Program-made: the position numbers and the translations under genes
Notes under the pieces: model-generated
Databases searched by the model: none
What the model saw: the letters and a program-made list of their open reading frames with translations, nothing else
What the model was told of the DNA's origin: nothing
Shown: positions 2,274 to 62,055 of the stretch, in pieces
How the letters are laid out: every line of letters begins with the position of its first letter
How positions within the stretch are numbered: the stretch's first letter is position 1
NCBI RefSeq assembly: GCF_900119085.1
Contig: NZ_FPIQ01000005.1
Span: forward strand, 90,795 to 154,794
Origin: Nitrosovibrio sp. Nv17
GTDB taxonomy: Bacteria > Pseudomonadota > Gammaproteobacteria > Burkholderiales > Nitrosomonadaceae
DNA length: 64,000 nucleotides
Direction of reading: 5' to 3'

Positions 2274-3479
2274 ATGGCTTCGCCGGCTTTTCCGAGGGTC
2301 GGACTGATCCTGACCGGAGGTGGCGCACGCGCCGCCTACCAGGTAGGTGTACTGCGAGCCATTGCCGCCCTGCTGCCGGAAAGGGCCCGCAACCCTTTTC
2401 CCGTGATCTGCGGCACCTCCGCCGGCGCCGTGAACGCCACCAGTCTCGCCCTGTCCGCACTAGATTTTCGGGAAGGCGTGGCACGGCTGTCGGCCGTATG
2501 GGAAAACGCCCACGTCGACCAGGCCTATCGCTCCGATCCCCCGGGCGTGCTCAGGAACTCCCTGCGGCTGCTGTCCACTCTTCTGCTCGGGGGAAAGAGC
2601 GAATCCACGCCGGTCTCGATGCTCGACAGTTCGCCCCTCTCCCGTCTGCTGGAGGCGCATCTCCCCTTCCATGCCATCCAGCACAACATCGAGAGCGGCG
2701 TCCTGCACGCGCTGGGCATCACAGCCTGGGGCTACACTTCCGGCCAGTCAGTCACGTTCTACCAGGGCGCGGGCAGCATCGTCCCCTGGAAGCGCAGGCG
2801 CCGCATCGGCGTCAGTACGCGCATCGGCGTGGAGCATCTGATGGCATCCTCAGCCATTCCCATTCTTTTTCCGCCCATCCGCATCAACCGTGAATATTTT
2901 GGCGATGGCTCCATGCGCCAGCTTGCACCCCTGAGTCCGGCGCTGCATCTCGGCGCGGAGCGCGTGCTGGTGATCGGGGTGCGCAAGCCCCCGGACACGC
3001 TGCCCGAGCGCATGGTCGTGAACGCTCCCCCCACACTGGCCCAGATTGGCGGACACATACTGGGCAGTATTTTTCTCGACAGCCTGGACGTGGATCTGGA
3101 GCGGCTGGAGCGCATCAACCGCACACTGCAGACATTCCCGGAGGCGCTGCTCAGAGGCAGCGGCATGTCCCTGCGTCAGGTGGAATCGATGGTCATCTCT
3201 CCCAGTGTGGAGATCCATGAAATCGCGGTTCACCATGCCCATACGCTGCCGCGCACCATACGGTTGCTCTATCGCGCCATCGGGGCACTGCGACACGATG
3301 GTTCGTCGCTCCTGAGCTATGTTCTGTTCGAGGAGCCGTTCTGTCGCGCACTGATCGATCTGGGGTATCAGGATACCATGGCCCAAAAATCGCGAATCCT
3401 GCGCTTCATCGGAATCGAGATGGGCACTGGTATAATCCGGGACAGCCCGGTTGCGGGCGTCTCCCCGGATGGACGCTGA
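2274..3479 (+). CDS. Patatin-like phospholipase family protein
   Basis: Predicted serine lipid acyl hydrolase of 401 residues. The patatin core is at the N-terminus: the oxyanion-hole loop GGGARAAYQ (residues 15-23), the nucleophile elbow GTSAG with Ser49, and the second half of the Ser-Asp dyad in DGS at Asp211, so the enzyme looks catalytically complete. There is no signal peptide or outer-membrane translocator, so it is not a type V secreted patatin like PlpD and is probably cytoplasmic or membrane-peripheral. A strong GGAGGGGG ribosome site overlaps the end of fumC. The substrate is unknown; turnover of membrane phospholipid is inference from the family. Confidence 0.85.
   Translation: MASPAFPRVGLILTGGGARAAYQVGVLRAIAALLPERARNPFPVICGTSAGAVNATSLALSALDFREGVARLSAVWENAHVDQAYRSDPPGVLRNSLRLLSTLLLGGKSESTPVSMLDSSPLSRLLEAHLPFHAIQHNIESGVLHALGITAWGYTSGQSVTFYQGAGSIVPWKRRRRIGVSTRIGVEHLMASSAIPILFPPIRINREYFGDGSMRQLAPLSPALHLGAERVLVIGVRKPPDTLPERMVVNAPPTLAQIGGHILGSIFLDSLDVDLERLERINRTLQTFPEALLRGSGMSLRQVESMVISPSVEIHEIAVHHAHTLPRTIRLLYRAIGALRHDGSSLLSYVLFEEPFCRALIDLGYQDTMAQKSRILRFIGIEMGTGIIRDSPVAGVSPDGR
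3428..3436 (+). promoter_or_regulatory. Extended -10 promoter candidate for the TerC gene
   Basis: TGG followed by a perfect TATAAT (3431-3436) forms an extended -10 element inside the 3' end of the patatin gene, about 90 bases ahead of the TerC start. No good -35 lies upstream, which is typical of extended -10 promoters. It would give the membrane protein its own transcript. Confidence 0.4.
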
Positions 3480-3523: not shown

Positions 3524-4252
3524 ATGGATATCGGAGATCCGCAGTTCTGGCTCGCGGTATTGCAAATCATCGCGATCGACATCGTACTGGGTGGGGACAA
3601 TGCGATCGTGATTGCACTCGCATGCCGGCGGCTGCCGGAGCAGCAACGCAATCTGGGCATCTTCTGGGGAGTGTTCGGCGCCATCGGGTTGCGGGTGGTC
3701 CTGATATTCTTCGCCCTCTCGCTGCTGGCGATTCCCTTTCTGAAATTGGTCGCCGCCTTGCTGCTGCTGTGGATCGGGATCAAGCTGCTCCAGCCTGCGT
3801 CCGACGGCGAGGGGCACGAAATCGACGCCAGCACCACATTGCCGGGCGCCATCAGGACGATCATCATCGCCGATGCCGTGATGAGCCTCGACAATGTCAT
3901 CGCGATCGCGGGGGCTGCCAAGGGCAGCATCGGGCTGGTGGTTCTCGGACTCGTGGTGAGCGTACCCATCATCGTCTGGGGAAGCAAGCTGGTCATGCGG
4001 CTCATGGAACGCTTTCCCGTCGTCATCGTCATGGGTGCCGGGCTGCTGGGCTGGATCGCGGGCGACATGAGCGTCAACGACGCCGTCGTCAGGGCATGGG
4101 TTGCCACCCACGCCGCCTTCCTGGACTGGCTTGCCCCCGTCTGTGGCGCGCTGCTGGTCGTGGTGATCGGCAAATGGCTGGGGGCAAGAACCCGCACGGG
4201 ATCCGAACCCATCACCGATCTTGCGGACGATGCGGACAGGCCGCCGACCTGA
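3524..4252 (+). CDS. TerC family integral membrane protein (YjbE-type)
   Basis: A 242-residue inner-membrane protein with about seven hydrophobic segments. Two intramembrane acidic motifs in matching positions of the two halves, LGGDNAIVIAL near the N-terminus and SLDNVIAIAGA in the middle, are the TerC/LysE-superfamily hallmark. Members of the family (Alx/MntP-like, YceF, YkoY) export manganese or protect metal enzymes during secretion; the specific ion here is not shown by the sequence. The C-terminal tail is hydrophilic and acidic. There is no room for a yybP-ykoY manganese riboswitch in the short leader, and I do not see one. Confidence 0.85.
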   Translation: MDIGDPQFWLAVLQIIAIDIVLGGDNAIVIALACRRLPEQQRNLGIFWGVFGAIGLRVVLIFFALSLLAIPFLKLVAALLLLWIGIKLLQPASDGEGHEIDASTTLPGAIRTIIIADAVMSLDNVIAIAGAAKGSIGLVVLGLVVSVPIIVWGSKLVMRLMERFPVVIVMGAGLLGWIAGDMSVNDAVVRAWVATHAAFLDWLAPVCGALLVVVIGKWLGARTRTGSEPITDLADDADRPPT

Positions 4253-49887: not shown

Positions 49888-51093
49888 TTATGACGACCGT
49901 ATTCCCAGGGCCTTGTCATAGACCTGGAGATATCCGCGTGTCATTGCCTCCATGCTGAACCCTGCCTCGACCAGACGCCGGGCCGCCTTGCCGTGCCGCA
50001 CAGCCTGATCGGGGGCCCGGTAGTACGCCAGGATGGCCTGCGCCAATGCTTGCGGGTCCGCCGGCGGAACCAGCATCCCGGTATGTCCTTCCCTCACCAG
50101 TTCGCCATTGCCGCCGACGCGGGTGGCCACCACCGGCAGACCGGTGGACATGGCTTCCAATATGGTGTTGGAGATCCCCTCTCCGAGCGAAGGCAGGACG
50201 AAGAGATCCATGGCGCGCATCAGTTCGGGAATGTCGGCGCGTTCGCCCGGCAACCAGGCAAGCGATTCCGCTCCCGCTTCCCTGAGCATCCCGAGGCACG
50301 CCGCCCGGGTAACCCCCTCGCCCACGATCAGCAGTCGCAAACGTTCGCGGGCCATCGGCTCCTGCTCCAGGACCTGCAGAAATGCCCGCACCAGGCCGGG
50401 GTAGTTCTTCACGTCCGCCATCCTGCCGACACTTCCCACGACAAAGGCGTCATCCGGAAAAAATTCCCGGATGACGCCATCCATGCGTGCTCCGTCGCGC
50501 GGATGGAAGCGCACACTGTCCACGCCGTTGTAGACCTGGTCGACGCGCTGCGGGACCGCCCCCACCGTCTCGACCAGCCAGCCTTCCAGATCCCGGCTGA
50601 CGGGGATGAAATGATGGATGAGCGGGCGGATTACCCTGCGCAGGAGATTGTACTTGCGATTCTTTCCATGAAGATCGAACATGTCCCGCCCATGCTCGCC
50701 ATGAATGCGCACGCGCACGCCCGCAGCCGCGGCCACGACCTGCGCCTCCATCGTGCCGAGATTGCGGGTGTGCACGATATCCGGCCGCAGGCGCCGCAGC
50801 AGCCGGAACAGGTTGCGATAGACGGCAAGGTCGTGCCCTTCGCGCTTGTTCAGCGCGAAGATCTCCACGTCCTCCCTCAGGATGCGGCGGCGAAAATCCG
50901 AATAACCCTTCAGGCAGACGATGGCGTGCCGGTATCGCTCGACCGGCATATGGTTAATCAGGTTGACCAGGCCGTTCTCGAGACCGCCCACGCCCAGATG
51001 ATGGATGACGTGGACGATGAGCGGAGGCCGTGCGACGGCGCTCATCGAGAGCCCCATCGATGATGCCGGTCGGGCGCTAATGCTGCCATGCAT
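49888..51093 (-). CDS. XrtA-associated family 1-type glycosyltransferase (TIGR03088-like)
   Basis: A 401-residue GT4-type (GT-B fold) glycosyltransferase. The acceptor loop HHLGVGGLENGLVNLI and the donor site LPSLGEGISNTILEAMSTG are present, the latter with the conserved E-x7-E spacing. Expected to act in exopolysaccharide assembly in the cytoplasm. The ATG at 51093 has GGAGGG nine bases upstream and overlaps the xrtA stop by 17 bases; a Met at 51045 is closer to the family start. Confidence 0.9.
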   Translation of the reverse strand: MHGSISARPASSMGLSMSAVARPPLIVHVIHHLGVGGLENGLVNLINHMPVERYRHAIVCLKGYSDFRRRILREDVEIFALNKREGHDLAVYRNLFRLLRRLRPDIVHTRNLGTMEAQVVAAAAGVRVRIHGEHGRDMFDLHGKNRKYNLLRRVIRPLIHHFIPVSRDLEGWLVETVGAVPQRVDQVYNGVDSVRFHPRDGARMDGVIREFFPDDAFVVGSVGRMADVKNYPGLVRAFLQVLEQEPMARERLRLLIVGEGVTRAACLGMLREAGAESLAWLPGERADIPELMRAMDLFVLPSLGEGISNTILEAMSTGLPVVATRVGGNGELVREGHTGMLVPPADPQALAQAILAYYRAPDQAVRHGKAARRLVEAGFSMEAMTRGYLQVYDKALGIRSS

Positions 51094-52663
51094 GCCTGAG
51101 TCCCTCCGTCAGCGCTGGCGCCATGTGGTCGACAAAAGCCTGGAGGCTCGGCGTGGCCTCTTCCGGGTCCTCTTCATAGGGCGTCGCGAGAACGATCTCG
51201 GCGCCATCGTCCCCTCTGCCGAGGAGCCTGTTTCGCGCCAGAAGAAATTTCGCCATGTAGGGACTCGCCGTTTCTTCCCCCCCGACCCAGTACCAGCGCC
51301 AGACGAGCAGTCTCCGCGCCGGCGCGTGCAGCTGGCTCTGCCTCACGGTCATGGAACGCGATCCCCGCGCGATGCTGCGGGTACTTTCCCCGACGTTGCG
51401 CCAGCGCGACCCCATCTCGGGCACGAGCAGGTTCTCGGTATTGACCAGCTCCTCCCCCTGGCGCTGGTTACGGTAGTAGTGGACGTACAGATCCACGCTG
51501 CCGTCGCTGCTGCGGTAGCTTCTCAGGTACCCTGCAGTCGCCCCCACGTATACCGGCTTCCAGTCGGAAGCCGGTTCCGTGGCGGCCCTCCACTCCCCGC
51601 TCGCGACAGGTATCTCGACCTGGGGCGCGGTGCTGCGGGAGAATCTGTCATCCAGATAGTCCGCCGCCGCCGGCCAGACCAGGGCAATGAGCAACACCGC
51701 GCCGGAGGCAAGCAATGTGCCGCCCAGCGGCGCATCTGCAACCTCGAGGCCGGAATGCGAGCCGGACCGGGAGATCGTGCCGGCGTCCTCGCCAGCTTCG
51801 TCATCCTCGCGCCAGAACGAGCCGATCCAGAACAGCACCAGCATCACGACGCCGAAGAACACCCAGCCATAGATGAGATGATCGACCCCCACGGCCAGCC
51901 GCATGTCGCTCAGATGGCCGGTCATCACGATCAGGTAGGCGCGGATGCCGTTGGCGACGATGGGCACGATCACCGACAACGCGATGAACCCCAGGCGGCG
52001 CTTGAGGCTGCGGTAGGTGAGATAGGCATACAGCGTGCCCAGGGTGAAGGATGCGATCAGATAGCGCAGGCCGCTGCAGGCCTCCACCACCGACCAGTTC
52101 CCTGTCGGAATGGTGAAGAAGCTGCCCTCGCGGTAGACGGGAATGCCGGTCAGTTGCAATGCGCGCACGGTGAAATCGGCGGTGAAGTCGATGAGGGGAG
52201 GAATCAGGACGTCGCCAAACGGGACCGCCAGGAGGAGGTAGGCCAGCGGAAAGGCCAGGGCCCAGGCCATCCGGGTGCCCAGGATGACCCAGACGGCGAC
52301 CGGGATCATGGCGATCAGGAAATACTGCTCGAGTACCTGAACACTGGCGAGCGTGGACAGCAGCCAGCAGAATCCCAGCACTCCGAGCGCCGCCAGCGCC
52401 AGCGGGCAGGGGCGCGAACGCAGCGTCGCCAGATGATGGCGACGGCCCCAGATCAGGTAGGCGCTGAAGGGAAAGATGAGAAAACCATGAGCGAAGGTGT
52501 CGGAACGCTCCCAGATGGAGATCATGGACCAGGTGGTCTCATGGTAGCCCACCAGAATCGCCGCCACGACGAGCGCCGTCACCCATGCTGCCATCTTCAG
52601 GTGATGCTGATCCGGGATCGTGGAAACACCCTGCACGATCTCCTGGGGGGTGTGCGCGCTCAT
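51077..52663 (-). CDS. xrtA: Exosortase A (XrtA) fused to an EpsI domain
   Basis: A 528-residue polytopic membrane protein, the transpeptidase-like enzyme expected to cut PEP-CTERM proteins and attach them at the cell surface. About eight helices span residues 25-275, with the catalytic triad Cys196 (EACSGLR), Arg241 (NGIRAY) and His262 (VDHLIYGW) all present. The C-terminal half (about 300-528) is an EpsI-type periplasmic domain, in other genomes sometimes a separate gene. It overlaps the upstream glycosyltransferase by four bases and the downstream one by 17. Confidence 0.95.
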   Translation of the reverse strand: MSAHTPQEIVQGVSTIPDQHHLKMAAWVTALVVAAILVGYHETTWSMISIWERSDTFAHGFLIFPFSAYLIWGRRHHLATLRSRPCPLALAALGVLGFCWLLSTLASVQVLEQYFLIAMIPVAVWVILGTRMAWALAFPLAYLLLAVPFGDVLIPPLIDFTADFTVRALQLTGIPVYREGSFFTIPTGNWSVVEACSGLRYLIASFTLGTLYAYLTYRSLKRRLGFIALSVIVPIVANGIRAYLIVMTGHLSDMRLAVGVDHLIYGWVFFGVVMLVLFWIGSFWREDDEAGEDAGTISRSGSHSGLEVADAPLGGTLLASGAVLLIALVWPAAADYLDDRFSRSTAPQVEIPVASGEWRAATEPASDWKPVYVGATAGYLRSYRSSDGSVDLYVHYYRNQRQGEELVNTENLLVPEMGSRWRNVGESTRSIARGSRSMTVRQSQLHAPARRLLVWRWYWVGGEETASPYMAKFLLARNRLLGRGDDGAEIVLATPYEEDPEEATPSLQAFVDHMAPALTEGLRHAWQH

Positions 52664-55909: not shown

Positions 55910-56929
55910 TCAGGGACTGCGCCGGGCCTCGTCCCTGTGCAGATGCTTGCTGACCTCCGCCAGGGCAAGGATCTGTTTGAGAAGCTCCAGCACCGACACG
56001 ACGGACTCTTCCAGCTTGACGATCCGCTCGTCGATATGGGCGAGGCCCCCGGATGCCTCCCCCACCGGCGAATGGGCACCGCCGGTATCGACGTGGTCGT
56101 CATCCATCGACGACATATCGAATTCCTGTCGAATGTCACGGATGACCTCGGCCACCTCGGCATTGCCGAAACGATGCAACTGCTCCAGGCAGCCCATCAG
56201 CAGGAGCCTGTCGCACAGCGTGTTGATCCTGCGCGGAATGCCGCCGGTATGGGCAAAGATGGTCTCGAACGCGTCTTCGTCGAACGAGGGATCGCCGTTC
56301 CAGCCGGCGGTGTTCAGGCGATGCTCGATATAGGAATGCGTTTCCGACAGATCCATGGGGCCAAGGTGGTAAGTGGCGGTCACCCGCTGCCGCAACTGCA
56401 GCATGTCGCCCCCCAGCAGGGTCTTCCTGAACTCCGGCTGACCCAGCAGGAACGTCTGCAGCAGCGGCTTGTCGTCCGTCTGGAAATTGGACAGCATCCT
56501 CAGCTCCTCCACCGTCTTCGGGGAAAGGTTCTGTGCCTCGTCCACCACCAGAAGGGTGCGCTTCCCCTGCCGCTCGCACTGGCGGAAGAACGATTCCAGG
56601 GAAATCAGCAGGGAGGCCTTGCTGGCATTCTCGTGGGGCAGGCCGAATGCCGCCGCGACCATCCTGAGCGTATCGTCCGAGTCCAGGTGGGTGCTGACGA
56701 TCTGTGCAGCCAGGACGTTCTCGGATTCCAGCGTACGGAAAAGGTTGCGCACCAGCGTGGTCTTGCCGGCCCCCACCTCGCCGGTGATGACGATGAAGCC
56801 CTCGCCCTGGGAAAGGCCGTACTGAAGGTAGGCCATGGCGCGCCGATGGCCCTTGCTGCCGAAGAAGAAGTTCGGGTCGGGCCGCAGCTGGAAGGGCTTG
56901 ACCCTGAAACCGTAGTAGGATGCGTACAT
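55910..56929 (-). CDS. XrtA-associated ExeA-like secretion ATPase
   Basis: A 339-residue AAA ATPase related to ExeA/GspA. Walker A GEVGAGKT (50-57), Walker B LLVVDEAQNL and sensor-like GGIPRRINTLCDRLL are present. The C-terminus is a coiled coil (LEESVVSVLELLKQIL). Family members in exosortase loci are thought to energise assembly of the export machinery. It starts twelve bases after the beta-barrel gene stop. Confidence 0.92.
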   Translation of the reverse strand: MYASYYGFRVKPFQLRPDPNFFFGSKGHRRAMAYLQYGLSQGEGFIVITGEVGAGKTTLVRNLFRTLESENVLAAQIVSTHLDSDDTLRMVAAAFGLPHENASKASLLISLESFFRQCERQGKRTLLVVDEAQNLSPKTVEELRMLSNFQTDDKPLLQTFLLGQPEFRKTLLGGDMLQLRQRVTATYHLGPMDLSETHSYIEHRLNTAGWNGDPSFDEDAFETIFAHTGGIPRRINTLCDRLLLMGCLEQLHRFGNAEVAEVIRDIRQEFDMSSMDDDHVDTGGAHSPVGEASGGLAHIDERIVKLEESVVSVLELLKQILALAEVSKHLHRDEARRSP

Positions 56930-56940
56930 CGCCGCCGCTC

Positions 56941-58569
56941 CTAGAAACTCATGTTCAGAAAAGCGGTCACGGCATTCTCGCGATAATTGGCCGCAGCCTG
57001 ATTGGAATCCCGTTGAACGTGCCGGAATTCAAGCATGCCCTGCACCATGGGATTCGTGCGCAGATTCCTCGACACGGTCGCCCTGCCGATGATGAAATCA
57101 TCTTCCCGGTCGGTCGAAAGGAAAGCGTAGCGCGTAAAACCGACGTTCAGGCTGGCCTGCGTCAGCGCGGATACCCGATAGCTCCACGTCGCACTGGCTC
57201 CGCTCTGCCGGGTGTTGTTGAGCAACGAGGTATTCACCCCCAGCAGGCCGATGTCGTCCGATTCCGGAGAATATGCCCGGCGCGTCATGTTGAATCCCCT
57301 GAGCATAAACGTGTGCCTCTTTCCGTTTATCCCCATGGAAACCTGCAGGCGCTTTTGCAGGAACAGGCGATTGGTGAGGAAATTGCTCGGATCCAGGAAG
57401 GATCCGCCCCCACCCGGGAACCCCGGACCCAAGCCGGGACTGCCCAGCGACGGTCCCGACCCCATGCCCGGATTCTGGGAACCGATGAGCTGCCCCAGGC
57501 CGCCCAGACCGAAGCCGCCCGCCCCCATGCCCGTCTGCTGGTTGAAGGTGGTGATGTTCTCATCGTAAGTAAGGTTCCAGACCGTCATCCGGGTACGATG
57601 GTTGAGCAGAGCGGAATAGGTGTCGCCGAAGAATCTCTGCCCCGCGTTCAGCATGACGCTGGTGCGCTCGTTCGGCAGCCAGGAAAAACCGACCGTCCAC
57701 GTGGGGCTGGAAGGACTGCCCCGAATCGACAGAAAACTGTTGCGCTCGTAGCCCCCGCTCGCCATCAGGCTGAATTGGGAAGTGACCTTGTACTGTAAAC
57801 TCGCCATGGTACGCTCCAGTTCCACGGTGCGTCCGGTGCGGCTGAAGTTGATCATCTGGTGGTCGTAGTTGACTCCCCAGCCCAATACCTGGAAATCGTC
57901 ACCGCTGTTCAGGCTCGCCTGAAAGGCATGCCGTTCGCTGTTGCGGAGCGCCTGCGCGCTGGACTCGACGATGCCGTAGGTATAGCGCACCTGGCCCGAG
58001 GCAAGTCCTTGGAAACGGTGGCGCAGGTAGGGGCTGACGGTATAGGTGCTGACATTTGCCCTGTTGCCCGTCACATTGACGTTGTCAAGCCCTTGCGGAC
58101 CGAACAGGGAGGCATTCTGCTGCATCATCAATGCAGTTCCGTCGAGAAAGAAAAGGTTCTCGATCAGTTCGGCAGTCCCGCGGGAATTGAGCTGGTGCCT
58201 CATCCGGGACAGGCCGCTCTGATTCGCGTAGATGAGATTGTTCATCATGTAGTCGGTCACGAAGGTGAAACGCCGCCCCACTCCATACACGGACACGCCG
58301 GGATTGATCTGGGTCACGAAATCGGAGCTGTCGGCGCCGTCCGTTCTCAGCCGGATGTTGTCCGAGTAGGTACCTCTTATATTCAGGCGTGGAACGATGC
58401 TCCATCCTCTTTCCGTTCCGCCGCCGCTCGCCGCCCCCCCGAACGCCGGACTCTGTCCGCTCCGCGGATCCTGCTGCCCGTAGGAATGCGCGGATGACAA
58501 CAGCGCGGCCAGAATGGCAAGCCATATGATCGAACACAGGCTGTCGCGATAGCGCCGGTTTTCAGACAC
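56941..58569 (-). CDS. XrtA-associated outer-membrane beta-barrel protein
   Basis: A 542-residue secreted protein: signal peptide (hydrophobic core CSIIWLAILAALLSS, cleavage near residue 31) and then alternating aromatic strands characteristic of an outer-membrane barrel (for example FTFVTDYMMNNLIYA, YLRHRFQGLASGQVRY). It ends with a C-terminal phenylalanine (FLNMSF), the barrel insertion signal. Residues 347-389 are an unusual Gly/Pro-rich stretch between strands (see findings). Likely outer-membrane part of the polysaccharide export path. Confidence 0.88.
   Translation of the reverse strand: MSENRRYRDSLCSIIWLAILAALLSSAHSYGQQDPRSGQSPAFGGAASGGGTERGWSIVPRLNIRGTYSDNIRLRTDGADSSDFVTQINPGVSVYGVGRRFTFVTDYMMNNLIYANQSGLSRMRHQLNSRGTAELIENLFFLDGTALMMQQNASLFGPQGLDNVNVTGNRANVSTYTVSPYLRHRFQGLASGQVRYTYGIVESSAQALRNSERHAFQASLNSGDDFQVLGWGVNYDHQMINFSRTGRTVELERTMASLQYKVTSQFSLMASGGYERNSFLSIRGSPSSPTWTVGFSWLPNERTSVMLNAGQRFFGDTYSALLNHRTRMTVWNLTYDENITTFNQQTGMGAGGFGLGGLGQLIGSQNPGMGSGPSLGSPGLGPGFPGGGGSFLDPSNFLTNRLFLQKRLQVSMGINGKRHTFMLRGFNMTRRAYSPESDDIGLLGVNTSLLNNTRQSGASATWSYRVSALTQASLNVGFTRYAFLSTDREDDFIIGRATVSRNLRTNPMVQGMLEFRHVQRDSNQAAANYRENAVTAFLNMSF
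57403..57531 (-). repeat. Low-complexity Gly/Pro/Met-rich loop within the beta-barrel gene
   Basis: Residues 347-389 consist of GMGAGGFGLGGLGQ, PGMGSGPSLGSPGLGPG and GGGGS type elements, an imperfect short-period repeat. It sits between predicted strands, most likely a long surface or periplasmic loop. Confidence 0.7.
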
Positions 58570-58574
58570 TTTTC

Positions 58575-59476
58575 TCAGGCGCTTTCTGGCTGATGGTAGT
58601 AGTAGCCATAATACTCGCCGCCCGAGAACGATCTGGCCTTGTTGTAGATCAGGTTCACCACGTCACACGATTCGAGTTGCCGCAGCATCTCCTTGACCGC
58701 CTGCTGCGAGGTCTTCTCGGCTTCGACCACCACCACGATCTGTCCCATCTGGCTTGCCAGCACGTGCGCCTCGCTGGTGAGCAGCAACGGGGGGGAATCG
58801 AAGATGACGACACGATCCGCGTAGCGCTGTGCAAGCTCCTTCAGGAGGGTTGCCATGCTCTGGCTGGCCAGAAGTTCGGTGGAATGCGAGTGCCGCGTGC
58901 CCGCCGTGAGCAGCGTCAGTTTCTCGACATCGGTTTTTATCAGCACGTCCGCCAGATCGAGATTGTCCTCGAGCAGGATGTCCATCAGGCCCTTTTCCGT
59001 GCCCAGCCCGAGAATCTTGGGAACCGTGGGACGGGCCACGTCGGCGTCGACCAGCAGCACCCTGCGATCCATCTCCATCGCGATGCTCATCGCCAGATTG
59101 ACCGTGCAGAAACTTTTCCCCTCGCCCGCCAGGGCGCTGGTCACCATGATGAGGTTGCCATTCCTGATCTTGCCTGCCCCCTGGTTGAAGGCATTGGTCA
59201 GCAACGGCCGCTTGATCACGCGGAACTGCTCGGCAACCTGGGTTCTGCCCTGATCCGGCGTGACGATGCCGTACTTGCGCATCTTTTCAAGATTGAGCTT
59301 GATGTACTTCGAGGTGGTAGGCGAAGACGGGGCGCCTTCCGCGGGAGAGTTCCAGTCCGGCGCCTCTTCCTTGGGTGGATTCCGATCGGCGCTTGCCGGC
59401 AAGCCCCCCCAACGCGCGGAACACCGGTTCTGGCCTCCTGCCTGAGCTTCCCGGCCGCTCTCTCGATAATGCTCAC
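58575..59476 (-). pseudogene. XrtA-associated tyrosine autokinase, frameshifted near the N-terminus
   Basis: BY-kinase of the CpsD/CapB type controlling polysaccharide length with its chain-length partner encoded upstream. The kinase body (58575-59402 frame) has Walker A LAGEGKS, Walker A' VLLVDADVARP, Walker B VVIFDSPPLL, and a tyrosine-rich tail GGEYYGYYYHQPESA for autophosphorylation. The expected N-terminus, SIIERAAGKLRQEA, is in another frame starting at a GTG (59476) with GGAG upstream. The two frames meet at seven G on the coding strand (59404-59410); one more G would join them into 300 residues. As given, only a shorter protein from the TTG at 59402 could be made. A sequencing error, a slippage-prone switch or real decay are all possible. 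Confidence 0.8.
59404..59410 (-). other. Seven-base homopolymer at the kinase frameshift
   Basis: C7 on the plus strand (G7 in the mRNA) lies exactly where the kinase N-terminal reading frame must change. Homopolymers of this length are prone to both polymerase slippage and sequencing miscounts. Confidence 0.85.
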
Positions 59477-59739
59477 GTCATCTCCAATGAGTTGGGTTGG
59501 AATCCATCGATATCCGCTCCCTCTGCCGTCCTTGCGGATATCCTGCAGAAACGGGGCGGGACGGCGAAACACGGAGCCGAACCGATATCCACACACATGA
59601 GAAAGGGACGGTCCTCTACAGACCCGGGATCACCGGCGCAACCACGGAAACCTGTAGATCCTGCCCCATCGGGAGTCCGATCCCCGGCCATGGCGCCTGC
59701 CCATCTTCCCGCCATGGTCGATCATGCCCGGGATCCCAG
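59477..59739. other. 263-bp gap between chain-length and kinase genes
   Basis: Adjacent genes in this operon otherwise overlap or are mostly separated by a few bases to 160 bases, so this gap stands out. It contains a minus-strand open frame of 80 codons (59473-59715) whose stop overlaps the kinase GTG as GTGA, but its sequence shows no recognisable domain and no good ribosome site. I see no terminator or promoter I would defend. Confidence 0.4.
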
Positions 59740-61272
59740 TCAAACCATCTTTGTCATCAAGGTACCATACAGACCCAGCAGGGACAGCAAGGACAGGCCG
59801 AACGCATACAGCCGCTTCCTGCTCTTTGCCTTTTCCTGATCGGTCCAGATCATGGGAACCGACCCCAGGATCGGCCTGCCGGTTATTTCGCGCAGGCTCA
59901 CCTGGCTGTGAAACGTGGGCCGGACCTGGCTGATGACGAAGGCAAGCCCGATTCCGGCCAGCAAGGACCCCGCAAACACGAGAGAGAAGAACTTGCTGCG
60001 ATCCGGCCCCACCGGCCGGTCGGAGACGGTCGGCGGATCGATGATCCTGAACGACATCAGATCCGTCACGGAGCCCAGTTCGCCGGATATCTTCGCCGAC
60101 TCGCGGCGCTCCAGAAGCTTCTCGTAGTTGGCCTTGTTCACCTGGTAGTCGCGATTCAACTGGGCAAGTTCCGCCTCCACCTGCGGCACGGCATTGCTCA
60201 ATGACTGGAGGCGATTATAACGCGCTGTGTACTCTTCCACACGGGCTTTCATCGAAGCCACGTCGGCTTCCGCCTCGGCCAGGGCCACATTGAGTTGCTG
60301 CAGCATCGGGCTGTAGTTCTTGCCGGGATCCGAGACATTGCGCACCATGAGCTTGGCTTCCTCCTTCTTGCGCTCTTCCAGCTGCGCGATCAGCCGCTTC
60401 GTGGAAATGATATCGGGATGCAGTTCCGTGAAATTCAGCCTGAGCGTATCCAGGTTCTTGTTCAGCTCGCTGATCCGGGAGTCGATCTCGACATTGACGA
60501 TGGCGGGGGAAATCGCCTCGCCCTGATCCACCATCATGACAGGCTCATCCCCGGTGATCTGTCTCCTGATCGCGTCCCGGGCGTGTTCCGCCTCCCGCAG
60601 GTCGAGCCGTGTCTTGTTGAGATCCTCGCTCGCAGCCGCCAATTGCGAATAGTAGTCTCCTCCCTGCTGGGGCATCAACCCGATGTTCTTCTGCTTGAAT
60701 TCCTTGAGCCTGTTTTCCCCCTCAACCAGTTTTTCCTCGTAGCTCTGGATCTGTTCGTCGATGAAACGCAGCGCCGCGACGGAATCCTGGCGCTTGTCCC
60801 CCAGTCCCCCTTCCACGAAGATCGTCAGCAGGGATTGCACGATGTCCTTGGCGAGCTTCGGATTCTGGTTGTTGTAGTGGATCGTGAAAAGATTGTCGCG
60901 GCCGGTGGTTCCCAGCTTGATCTTCTCCATCAGTTCCTTGACCCGCCTCTCGTAATCCTTCGGATCCTGAATGCCCAGGTCCAGGTCCACCATGCGGATG
61001 ACCCGCTCCACGTTGGGCCGGCTGATCAGCGTCCGGCTCATGATGGAAACCTGCTGCTGCAGATCGGGAGAAATCGTCATGCCCGCCATGAGAGGCTTGA
61101 GCACATTCTGTGTATCCACGTAGATCCGGGCCGACGCCTGGTAGTCGTCGGGCAGCTTGTAGACGATGATCCAGCCGGTGATGGCGATGAGCCAGGCGGC
61201 GGCAACGGAAGCCCAGCGGTATTTCCATATCCCTTTCAGGTAGATCAGCAGTTGGGTAGTCAAATCTTCCAT
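59740..61272 (-). CDS. XrtA-associated chain-length determinant (Wzz/GNVR type)
   Basis: A 510-residue inner-membrane co-polymerase. A first transmembrane helix (about 22-38) follows the family N-terminus EDLTTQLLIYLKGIWKYRW, then a long periplasmic coiled coil (about 150-400) and a proline-rich segment (DPPTVSDRPVGPDRSK) before the second helix near 430-450; a short hydrophobic segment ends the protein. No kinase domain is fused; the partner kinase is the next gene. The start is the ATG at 61272 with AGGGA upstream. Confidence 0.92.
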   Translation of the reverse strand: MEDLTTQLLIYLKGIWKYRWASVAAAWLIAITGWIIVYKLPDDYQASARIYVDTQNVLKPLMAGMTISPDLQQQVSIMSRTLISRPNVERVIRMVDLDLGIQDPKDYERRVKELMEKIKLGTTGRDNLFTIHYNNQNPKLAKDIVQSLLTIFVEGGLGDKRQDSVAALRFIDEQIQSYEEKLVEGENRLKEFKQKNIGLMPQQGGDYYSQLAAASEDLNKTRLDLREAEHARDAIRRQITGDEPVMMVDQGEAISPAIVNVEIDSRISELNKNLDTLRLNFTELHPDIISTKRLIAQLEERKKEEAKLMVRNVSDPGKNYSPMLQQLNVALAEAEADVASMKARVEEYTARYNRLQSLSNAVPQVEAELAQLNRDYQVNKANYEKLLERRESAKISGELGSVTDLMSFRIIDPPTVSDRPVGPDRSKFFSLVFAGSLLAGIGLAFVISQVRPTFHSQVSLREITGRPILGSVPMIWTDQEKAKSRKRLYAFGLSLLSLLGLYGTLMTKMV

Positions 61273-61428
61273 GCTTACAGATCCCTGATGAAATGGTGGC
61301 CGAATTTCCTGAGGGAAGCCGTTTCCCGGGACCTGTCCGCCTGCGTAGCGCGAGGCAGGGCCCATGCGCCCCTGTCGATCGTCATACCCTGCGCTGCCAT
61401 GAGAAACACGCCTCCCATCCCGGCCGAA

Positions 61429-62055
61429 TCAGAAAAAGCTCTCGGGTATCACCAGCACATCGCCCTGGCGCACGGGAACGTTCGCCGAGATGTCGCCATC
61501 GCGGATCAGGTCATCCAGCCTGACGCTGAACTGCTGCTGTTTCCCGTCCACGTTGCGAATGATCCGGGCCTTGTTGCCGGCGGCGAAATCCGTGATGCCG
61601 CCTACCGCGATCAACACGTCCATCAGCGTCATCTCCTCGCGGTAGGGCAGCGCCTGGGGTCTGGCCGCCTCGCCGATGACGCGCACCTGCTCGGAGTACG
61701 GCCCGACGAACTGGGTCACCACCACCGTCACGACGGGCTGCTGGATATATCTGGACAATGCTTCCTCGATGTCACGCGCCAGTTGCGTGGAAGTCTTGCC
61801 GCTGGCGGGAAGATCCTCGACCAGAGGCGTGGTGATCTTTCCATCGGGACGCACCGGTACCGACATCGAAACTTCCGGATTGCGCCAGACGATGATATCC
61901 ACGCTGTCGCCCGGCCCGATCAGGTAGTCATGCGCGACATGCCTTTCGTCGGGAGAAAGCGGGGGATAGGATGTGCATCCGCCAGACATCAGTATTGGAA
62001 ACGCGATGGCGAGGCAGGCCAGCCATTTCCTGGTGCCGGGATGGAAAGTGTTCAC
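61429..62055 (-). CDS. XrtA-associated polysaccharide export lipoprotein (Wza-like)
   Basis: A 208-residue outer-membrane export protein: signal peptide ending in lipobox MSGGC with Cys27, a Poly_export domain (YLIGPGDSVDIIVWRNPEVS) and a SLBB-type domain (VRVIGEAARPQALPYREEMT). It is the short, locus-specific form without the extra domains of Wza. The GTG start has AGGAA seven bases upstream. It is the first gene of the eleven-gene XrtA operon. Confidence 0.93.
   Translation of the reverse strand: MNTFHPGTRKWLACLAIAFPILMSGGCTSYPPLSPDERHVAHDYLIGPGDSVDIIVWRNPEVSMSVPVRPDGKITTPLVEDLPASGKTSTQLARDIEEALSRYIQQPVVTVVVTQFVGPYSEQVRVIGEAARPQALPYREEMTLMDVLIAVGGITDFAAGNKARIIRNVDGKQQQFSVRLDDLIRDGDISANVPVRQGDVLVIPESFF

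Follow-up and report, generated by a model that had tools for sequence, protein, structure and literature searches.

The window, which is the whole stretch of 64,000 nucleotides that was analysed (G000:C31:90795-154794), belongs to a genome of 2.84 Mb in 56 contigs, whose genus-mates include named Nitrosospira and Nitrosovibrio. Its minus strand carries an XrtA polysaccharide cluster that encodes an export protein, a chain-length determinant, a tyrosine autokinase, an outer membrane protein, an ATPase and exosortase A (Table 1). Matches to TIGR03109, TIGR03007, TIGR03027, TIGR03016 and TIGR03015 all fall within 51-62 kb, which gives the kinase both an exosortase A and polysaccharide genes as neighbours. 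The G+C content is 62.6-62.9% in contigs C31, C30 and C9 of this genome, which include the whole window, against 52.7% in 400 kb of genome G021. At the kinase locus the window has 59.8%, where 22 congeners have 49-53%; such a difference is large for members of a single genus.

Table 1. Features of the kinase gene and of the surrounding XrtA cluster, in positions of the window
Feature	Position	Strand	Basis
Native GTG start of the kinase, GGAG just 5'	59474..59476	-	read from sequence, duplex energy
Conserved head SIIERAAGKLRQEA and first linker residues, frame 1	59411..59476	-	sequence, relatives
G7 tract, frame junction	59404..59410	-	sequence, run count, congener linkers
TTG, putative start; no other start-type codon lies close to the tract in the core frame	59400..59402	-	duplex scan; start use inferred
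Kinase core with tyrosine tail (open frame; 275 aa counted from the TTG)	58575..59402	-	ORF, profile, structure-set match
Out-of-frame continuation of the head ORF	59216..59403	-	ORF list
Chain-length determinant of the XrtA system (TIGR03007, 699.9 bits), partner gene on the upstream side	59740..61365	-	profile
XrtA/PEP-CTERM exopolysaccharide export protein (TIGR03027)	61429..62055	-	profile
PEP-CTERM system-associated outer membrane protein (TIGR03016)	56941..58569	-	profile
XrtA/PEP-CTERM system-associated ATPase (TIGR03015)	55910..56929	-	profile
Exosortase A (TIGR03109), EpsI-type C-terminal domain	51077..52663	-	profile

Direct reading of the minus strand places the conserved head and the intact core of the XrtA-associated tyrosine autokinase gene in different frames. 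The native start is a GTG with the SIIERAAGKLRQEA head in the same frame, and the GGAG that lies 5' of it reaches a duplex energy of -6.4 kcal/mol at best, with a spacing of 4; GGAGAAAGC-GTG is found at the equivalent position in many congeners. Translation from this GTG gives SIIERAAGKLRQEARTGVPRVGG and then proceeds in a frame unlike that of the kinase until 59216, and this head frame counts 86 aa from the GTG, while the listed ORF begins farther upstream, at 59596. In the core frame a TGA stands at 59480-59478, and the next 25 codons contain no ATG, GTG or TTG; the TTG at 59402, one base past the tract, follows, and from there the frame stays open to 58575. The two frames part at the GGGGGGG tract, as had been described in the initial annotation, which also recognised an N-terminus with a good ribosome site that is out of frame with the core. 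From the start codon to the GIVTPD core there are 206 bases in the window, which leave a remainder of 2 modulo 3, and the remainder is 0 in the 13 congeners whose start was located (9 of the 23 genus rows gave no start match and were left out of this count). No single reading frame leads from the native start to the tail, and the gene is a broken member of TIGR03018. A conserved head out of frame with a conserved core is beyond chance, while a G7 tract alone is not.

The core scores 285.9 bits against TIGR03018 (pepcterm_TyrKin), whose curated cut-off is 230.65. It resembles the members of this family in its score and in its XrtA cluster neighbours, and differs from them in that head and core lie in different frames. 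The sequences AGEGKS, LLVDADVARP, VVIFDSPP and EYYGYYY are read in the core, which also aligns with VpsO; we take them to be the Walker A, A' and B motifs and the C-terminal tyrosine cluster, and their presence agrees with the earlier view that Walker motifs and tyrosine tail are preserved. Within a set of solved structures the core matches the bacterial tyrosine kinases VpsO (E 6.6e-26), BceF (2.6e-23), a CapA1/CapB chimera (1.9e-22) and Wzc (6.3e-16), with best alignments that leave the head region unmatched. In kinases of the type found in the window, and in contrast to Wzc, the membrane chain-length protein is a distinct polypeptide.

Among 110 loci tested for the head, 107 matched the core, of which 67 have the head in frame, 37 are without the head motif and 3 have head and core disconnected; these rows include some genomes twice. 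When the genus genomes are counted once (L008-L030), head and core share a frame in 21 of 23, and the two disconnected cases are the window and Nitrosospira sp. Nsp11. The loci without the motif are titled Janthinobacterium, Duganella, Rugamonas or Oxalobacteraceae in 36 of the 37 cases, all with intact cores, and the remaining one is L034. Since many Oxalobacteraceae homologues lack the head, the kinase fold can do without it. The linker between head and core is poorly conserved, both in sequence and in length. No G run occurs in the linkers of the 13 measured congeners, whose longest runs are 5 bases of A or T, and a break at the site equivalent to the G7 tract was not found in any homologue examined. 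These relatives were compared as one genome per species, all of them from species other than that of the window.

Between the window and G021 the core has a dN of 0.032 and a dS of 1.598, so that its dN/dS of about 0.02 is a rough value because dS is saturated. The chain-length gene (dN 0.060, dS 2.217) and the ATPase gene (dN 0.072, dS 2.324) also have saturated dS in this comparison. When the mean dN to other genomes is divided, window by G021, the ratio comes to 1.35 in the core, 1.45 in the chain-length gene, 1.33 in the ATPase and 1.20 in the outer membrane protein, and relative to these three neighbouring genes the window core shows no sign of relaxed constraint. The initial annotation had argued against old decay, and the low dN/dS, rough as it is with saturated dS, together with a relative dN that lies within the 1.20-1.45 of the neighbours, bears this out; an old pseudogene was rejected for the window. 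A core under undiminished constraint fits a recent mutation, a sequencing error or a core that is still in use.

The kinase frame is broken in 3 of the 23 genus genomes, each time by a different lesion, namely in the window, in Nsp11 and in G007. Nsp11 (G010; L045 and L022) has an in-frame TAA in the linker, at about 4027-4032, and its core, which is intact, shows no excess dN past the stop. G007 (L028) has a TAA at codon 266 where its sister G003 (L029) has CAA, and its kinase stops after 265 residues, versus 297 in G003, and has lost the last strand and the tyrosine tail. Both lesions are stop codons away from repeats, which favours ordinary loss of function. A query for core lesions in 109 loci flagged only Nsp11 (twice, as L022 and L045) and G007; it began after the tract and was by its design unable to flag the window. 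In N. briensis Nsp8 (L052 and L021 are this one genome) the partner gene is affected: the frame of the chain-length determinant shifts by one base towards the end of the gene, near 3369. A similar flag in the chain-length gene of L116 is explained by N runs. The export protein is free of lesions in 17 of 17 named genus loci and the ATPase in the 16 of 17 that were covered, and none was seen in the outer membrane protein, for which only 9 of the 17 loci were covered to 90%. Apparent internal stops also occur in rows of more distant genomes.

The headless homologues, with their intact cores, invite the reading that the core of the window is made alone from TTG 59402, with the G run as its ribosome site, and that the head is dispensable and the break tolerated. 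The G run forms a Shine-Dalgarno-like site for this TTG with a duplex energy of -7.8 kcal/mol, stronger than the -6.4 kcal/mol of the native start, and the Nsp11 core beyond its stop, which has no excess dN, agrees with this reading. However, the spacing of 3 is short, the energy barely passes the 5% quantile of the background, -7.2, a well-placed internal start was not found in Nsp11 (the best value in the scanned codons is -3.5), and the head is kept in frame in nearly all genomes of the genus, so that independent synthesis of the core is very unlikely. Recoding, in which slippage of the ribosome or the polymerase within the run of Gs would yield full-length kinase in useful proportion, draws on the position of the run at the frame joint and on a viral thymidine kinase, for which frameshifting on seven Gs is described as giving a low amount of functional product (PMC5009743). 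Against it, no examined homologue is broken at this site and the RNA around the tract shows no stimulatory structure, with a z of 0.90 and 161 of 200 shuffles that fold at least as well. A shift site that is not conserved and the lack of such a structure speak against programmed frameshifting, which was rejected, and against transcriptional slippage, and recoding is extremely improbable.

A sequencing or assembly artefact, by which the cells would carry an in-frame gene and one G would have been lost from the consensus, predicts the intact core equally well. The window is the only genome broken at the G7 site, and a break at a homopolymer in a single genome is the classic profile of an error; one source (PMC3711429) expects singleton frameshifts validated by BLASTp to be, for the most part, sequencing errors and not true indels. 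To survey the quality of the assembly, 207 conserved genes from G021 were compared with 656 kb of G000 over 220 kb of alignment, which gave 8 flags, of which 1 looks genuine, the kinase being caught separately by a short-head check. The genuine-looking flag is a small conserved protein with a frameshift near its 3' end (L151 near 18137; G000:C30 near 158137), which has no run of 6 or more at the break and could itself be an error. Inside the 207 genes there are 13 in-frame G/C runs, nine of 7, three of 8 and one of 9; BLAST segments cannot cross frames, so that the counted tracts are in frame by construction, and breaks were sought separately.

An earlier survey of 157 genes had given 7 flags, all judged spurious, and a spike-in control, carried out with this smaller set only, detected 96 of 109 planted deletions and missed 13. 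The short-head check of 41 genes gave three hits, which are the kinase, an antisense case and a gene rich in lysine codons that 275 N interrupt. The flags set aside as spurious comprise a merged rpmH/rnpA ORF, one located at a contig end, one that on reading seems to overlap a gene in antisense, a stop within an over-long start, one antisense to the chain-length gene, and a557918 and b192792, which were judged from longer ORFs in other frames alone. The run of 275 N (L142 10520-10794) lies just before the start of the window, inside the lysine-rich gene, and may be a scaffold gap or a mask. Pieces of the ammonia monooxygenase genes end at contig ends, and together with the N run they would fit a short-read assembly.

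With one other frameshift-like case in 207 genes and 13 runs in frame, an assembly generally prone to homopolymer errors was rejected, and the survey makes an error at the kinase less likely. In addition, the stop codons that break the same gene in Nsp11 and G007 are not of a kind that homopolymer errors can give rise to, and the lesions of G007 and Nsp8 shift weight from error to real loss. The initial annotation had considered a sequencing error equally plausible as a switch; that rating was too high in the light of the survey, and we regard an artefact as the second most likely reading, possible but rather unlikely.

The same annotation had proposed that the tract could act as an on/off switch, in which reversible changes of tract length turn the kinase, and hence the polysaccharide, on and off. 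The tract does lie within the coding region of a gene that is otherwise intact, and its length can be compared with published ones. A seven-base G tract in the coding region of glpK of Mycobacterium tuberculosis, which also acquires frame-breaking indels, is described as a phase-variable site (PMC11898584), and the tract of the window equals it in length; that source reports variation in many isolates, whereas the window is one sequence only. Surveys of Campylobacter use a cut-off of 7 G/C, which the tract meets, and switching is shown directly in C. jejuni for tracts of 8 or more (PMC6321876), while the cut-off in Neisseria surveys is 9 or more (PMC5953494), above the length found here. In Lactobacillus johnsonii a spontaneous mutation of a polysaccharide tyrosine kinase (EpsC D88N) alters the colony type (PMC3609815), which is a substitution with a demonstrated phenotype, while the change in the window is a frameshift known from sequence alone. 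A literature search for Nitrosospira and phase variation returned nothing on Nitrosospira, and its match concerned Vibrio.

Several results speak against the switch. The tract is private to the window among the congeners measured, no examined homologue breaks there, and the lesions of the relatives are not at repeats. G/C runs of 7 or more are under-represented, not enriched, in the sequence surveyed: the window has 10 G7 runs versus 25.9 expected, and runs of exactly 7 number 25 in 656 kb versus 92 in three first-order simulations. The mismatch repair genes MutS (1057 bits) and MutL are present. According to the initial annotation, further inactivating changes in the kinase of relatives would count against a switch; such changes exist, and the one in G007 falls in the core itself. 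Phase variation at this locus is consequently improbable. Another G7 run lies at 58434-58440 in the next gene downstream, where it keeps the frame of the outer membrane protein close to its start.

The best explanation, to which we give about an even chance, is that one base was gained or lost by accident, and recently, at the G7 tract, so that kinase start and core are no longer connected, and that this is one of several independent losses that affect the XrtA kinase/chain-length pair in this genus. It is favoured by a break that falls at the G7 tract with both the start signal and the core intact, in a genus where other genomes mostly keep the two in frame. An ordinary slipped-strand error would have produced the indel in the fast-evolving linker, translation from the native GTG would make the head and then enter a dead frame, and full-length kinase would be absent or made at leak level only. 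This supposes that the indel is present in the cells and not just in the assembly and that kinase output falls; the indel would be recent, since the window core is without relaxed constraint.

If the accidental loss is real, it adds another independent case to the kinase/chain-length machinery of an ammonia oxidiser, and whether nitrifiers readily shed their polysaccharide, for example in culture, becomes testable. If the change is an error, it calls for caution with kinase annotation in draft genomes, and if it is reversible it would mean phase-variable control of polysaccharide in a soil nitrifier. A more speculative combination, which we hold to be decidedly improbable, would make the XrtA kinase and chain-length genes of Nitrosospira a contingency point, where chance mutations that abolish polysaccharide production recur and are selected, in culture or in soil. 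In the window's high-GC species an acquired G7 tract would then let such a loss be undone, which would amount to a switch at an early stage, in a nitrifier that lives freely.

A minor observation concerns the head of the kinase, whose SIIEKA motif is present twice in tandem in L031, L055, L057, L070 and L086, an arrangement that suggests a repeatable docking element.
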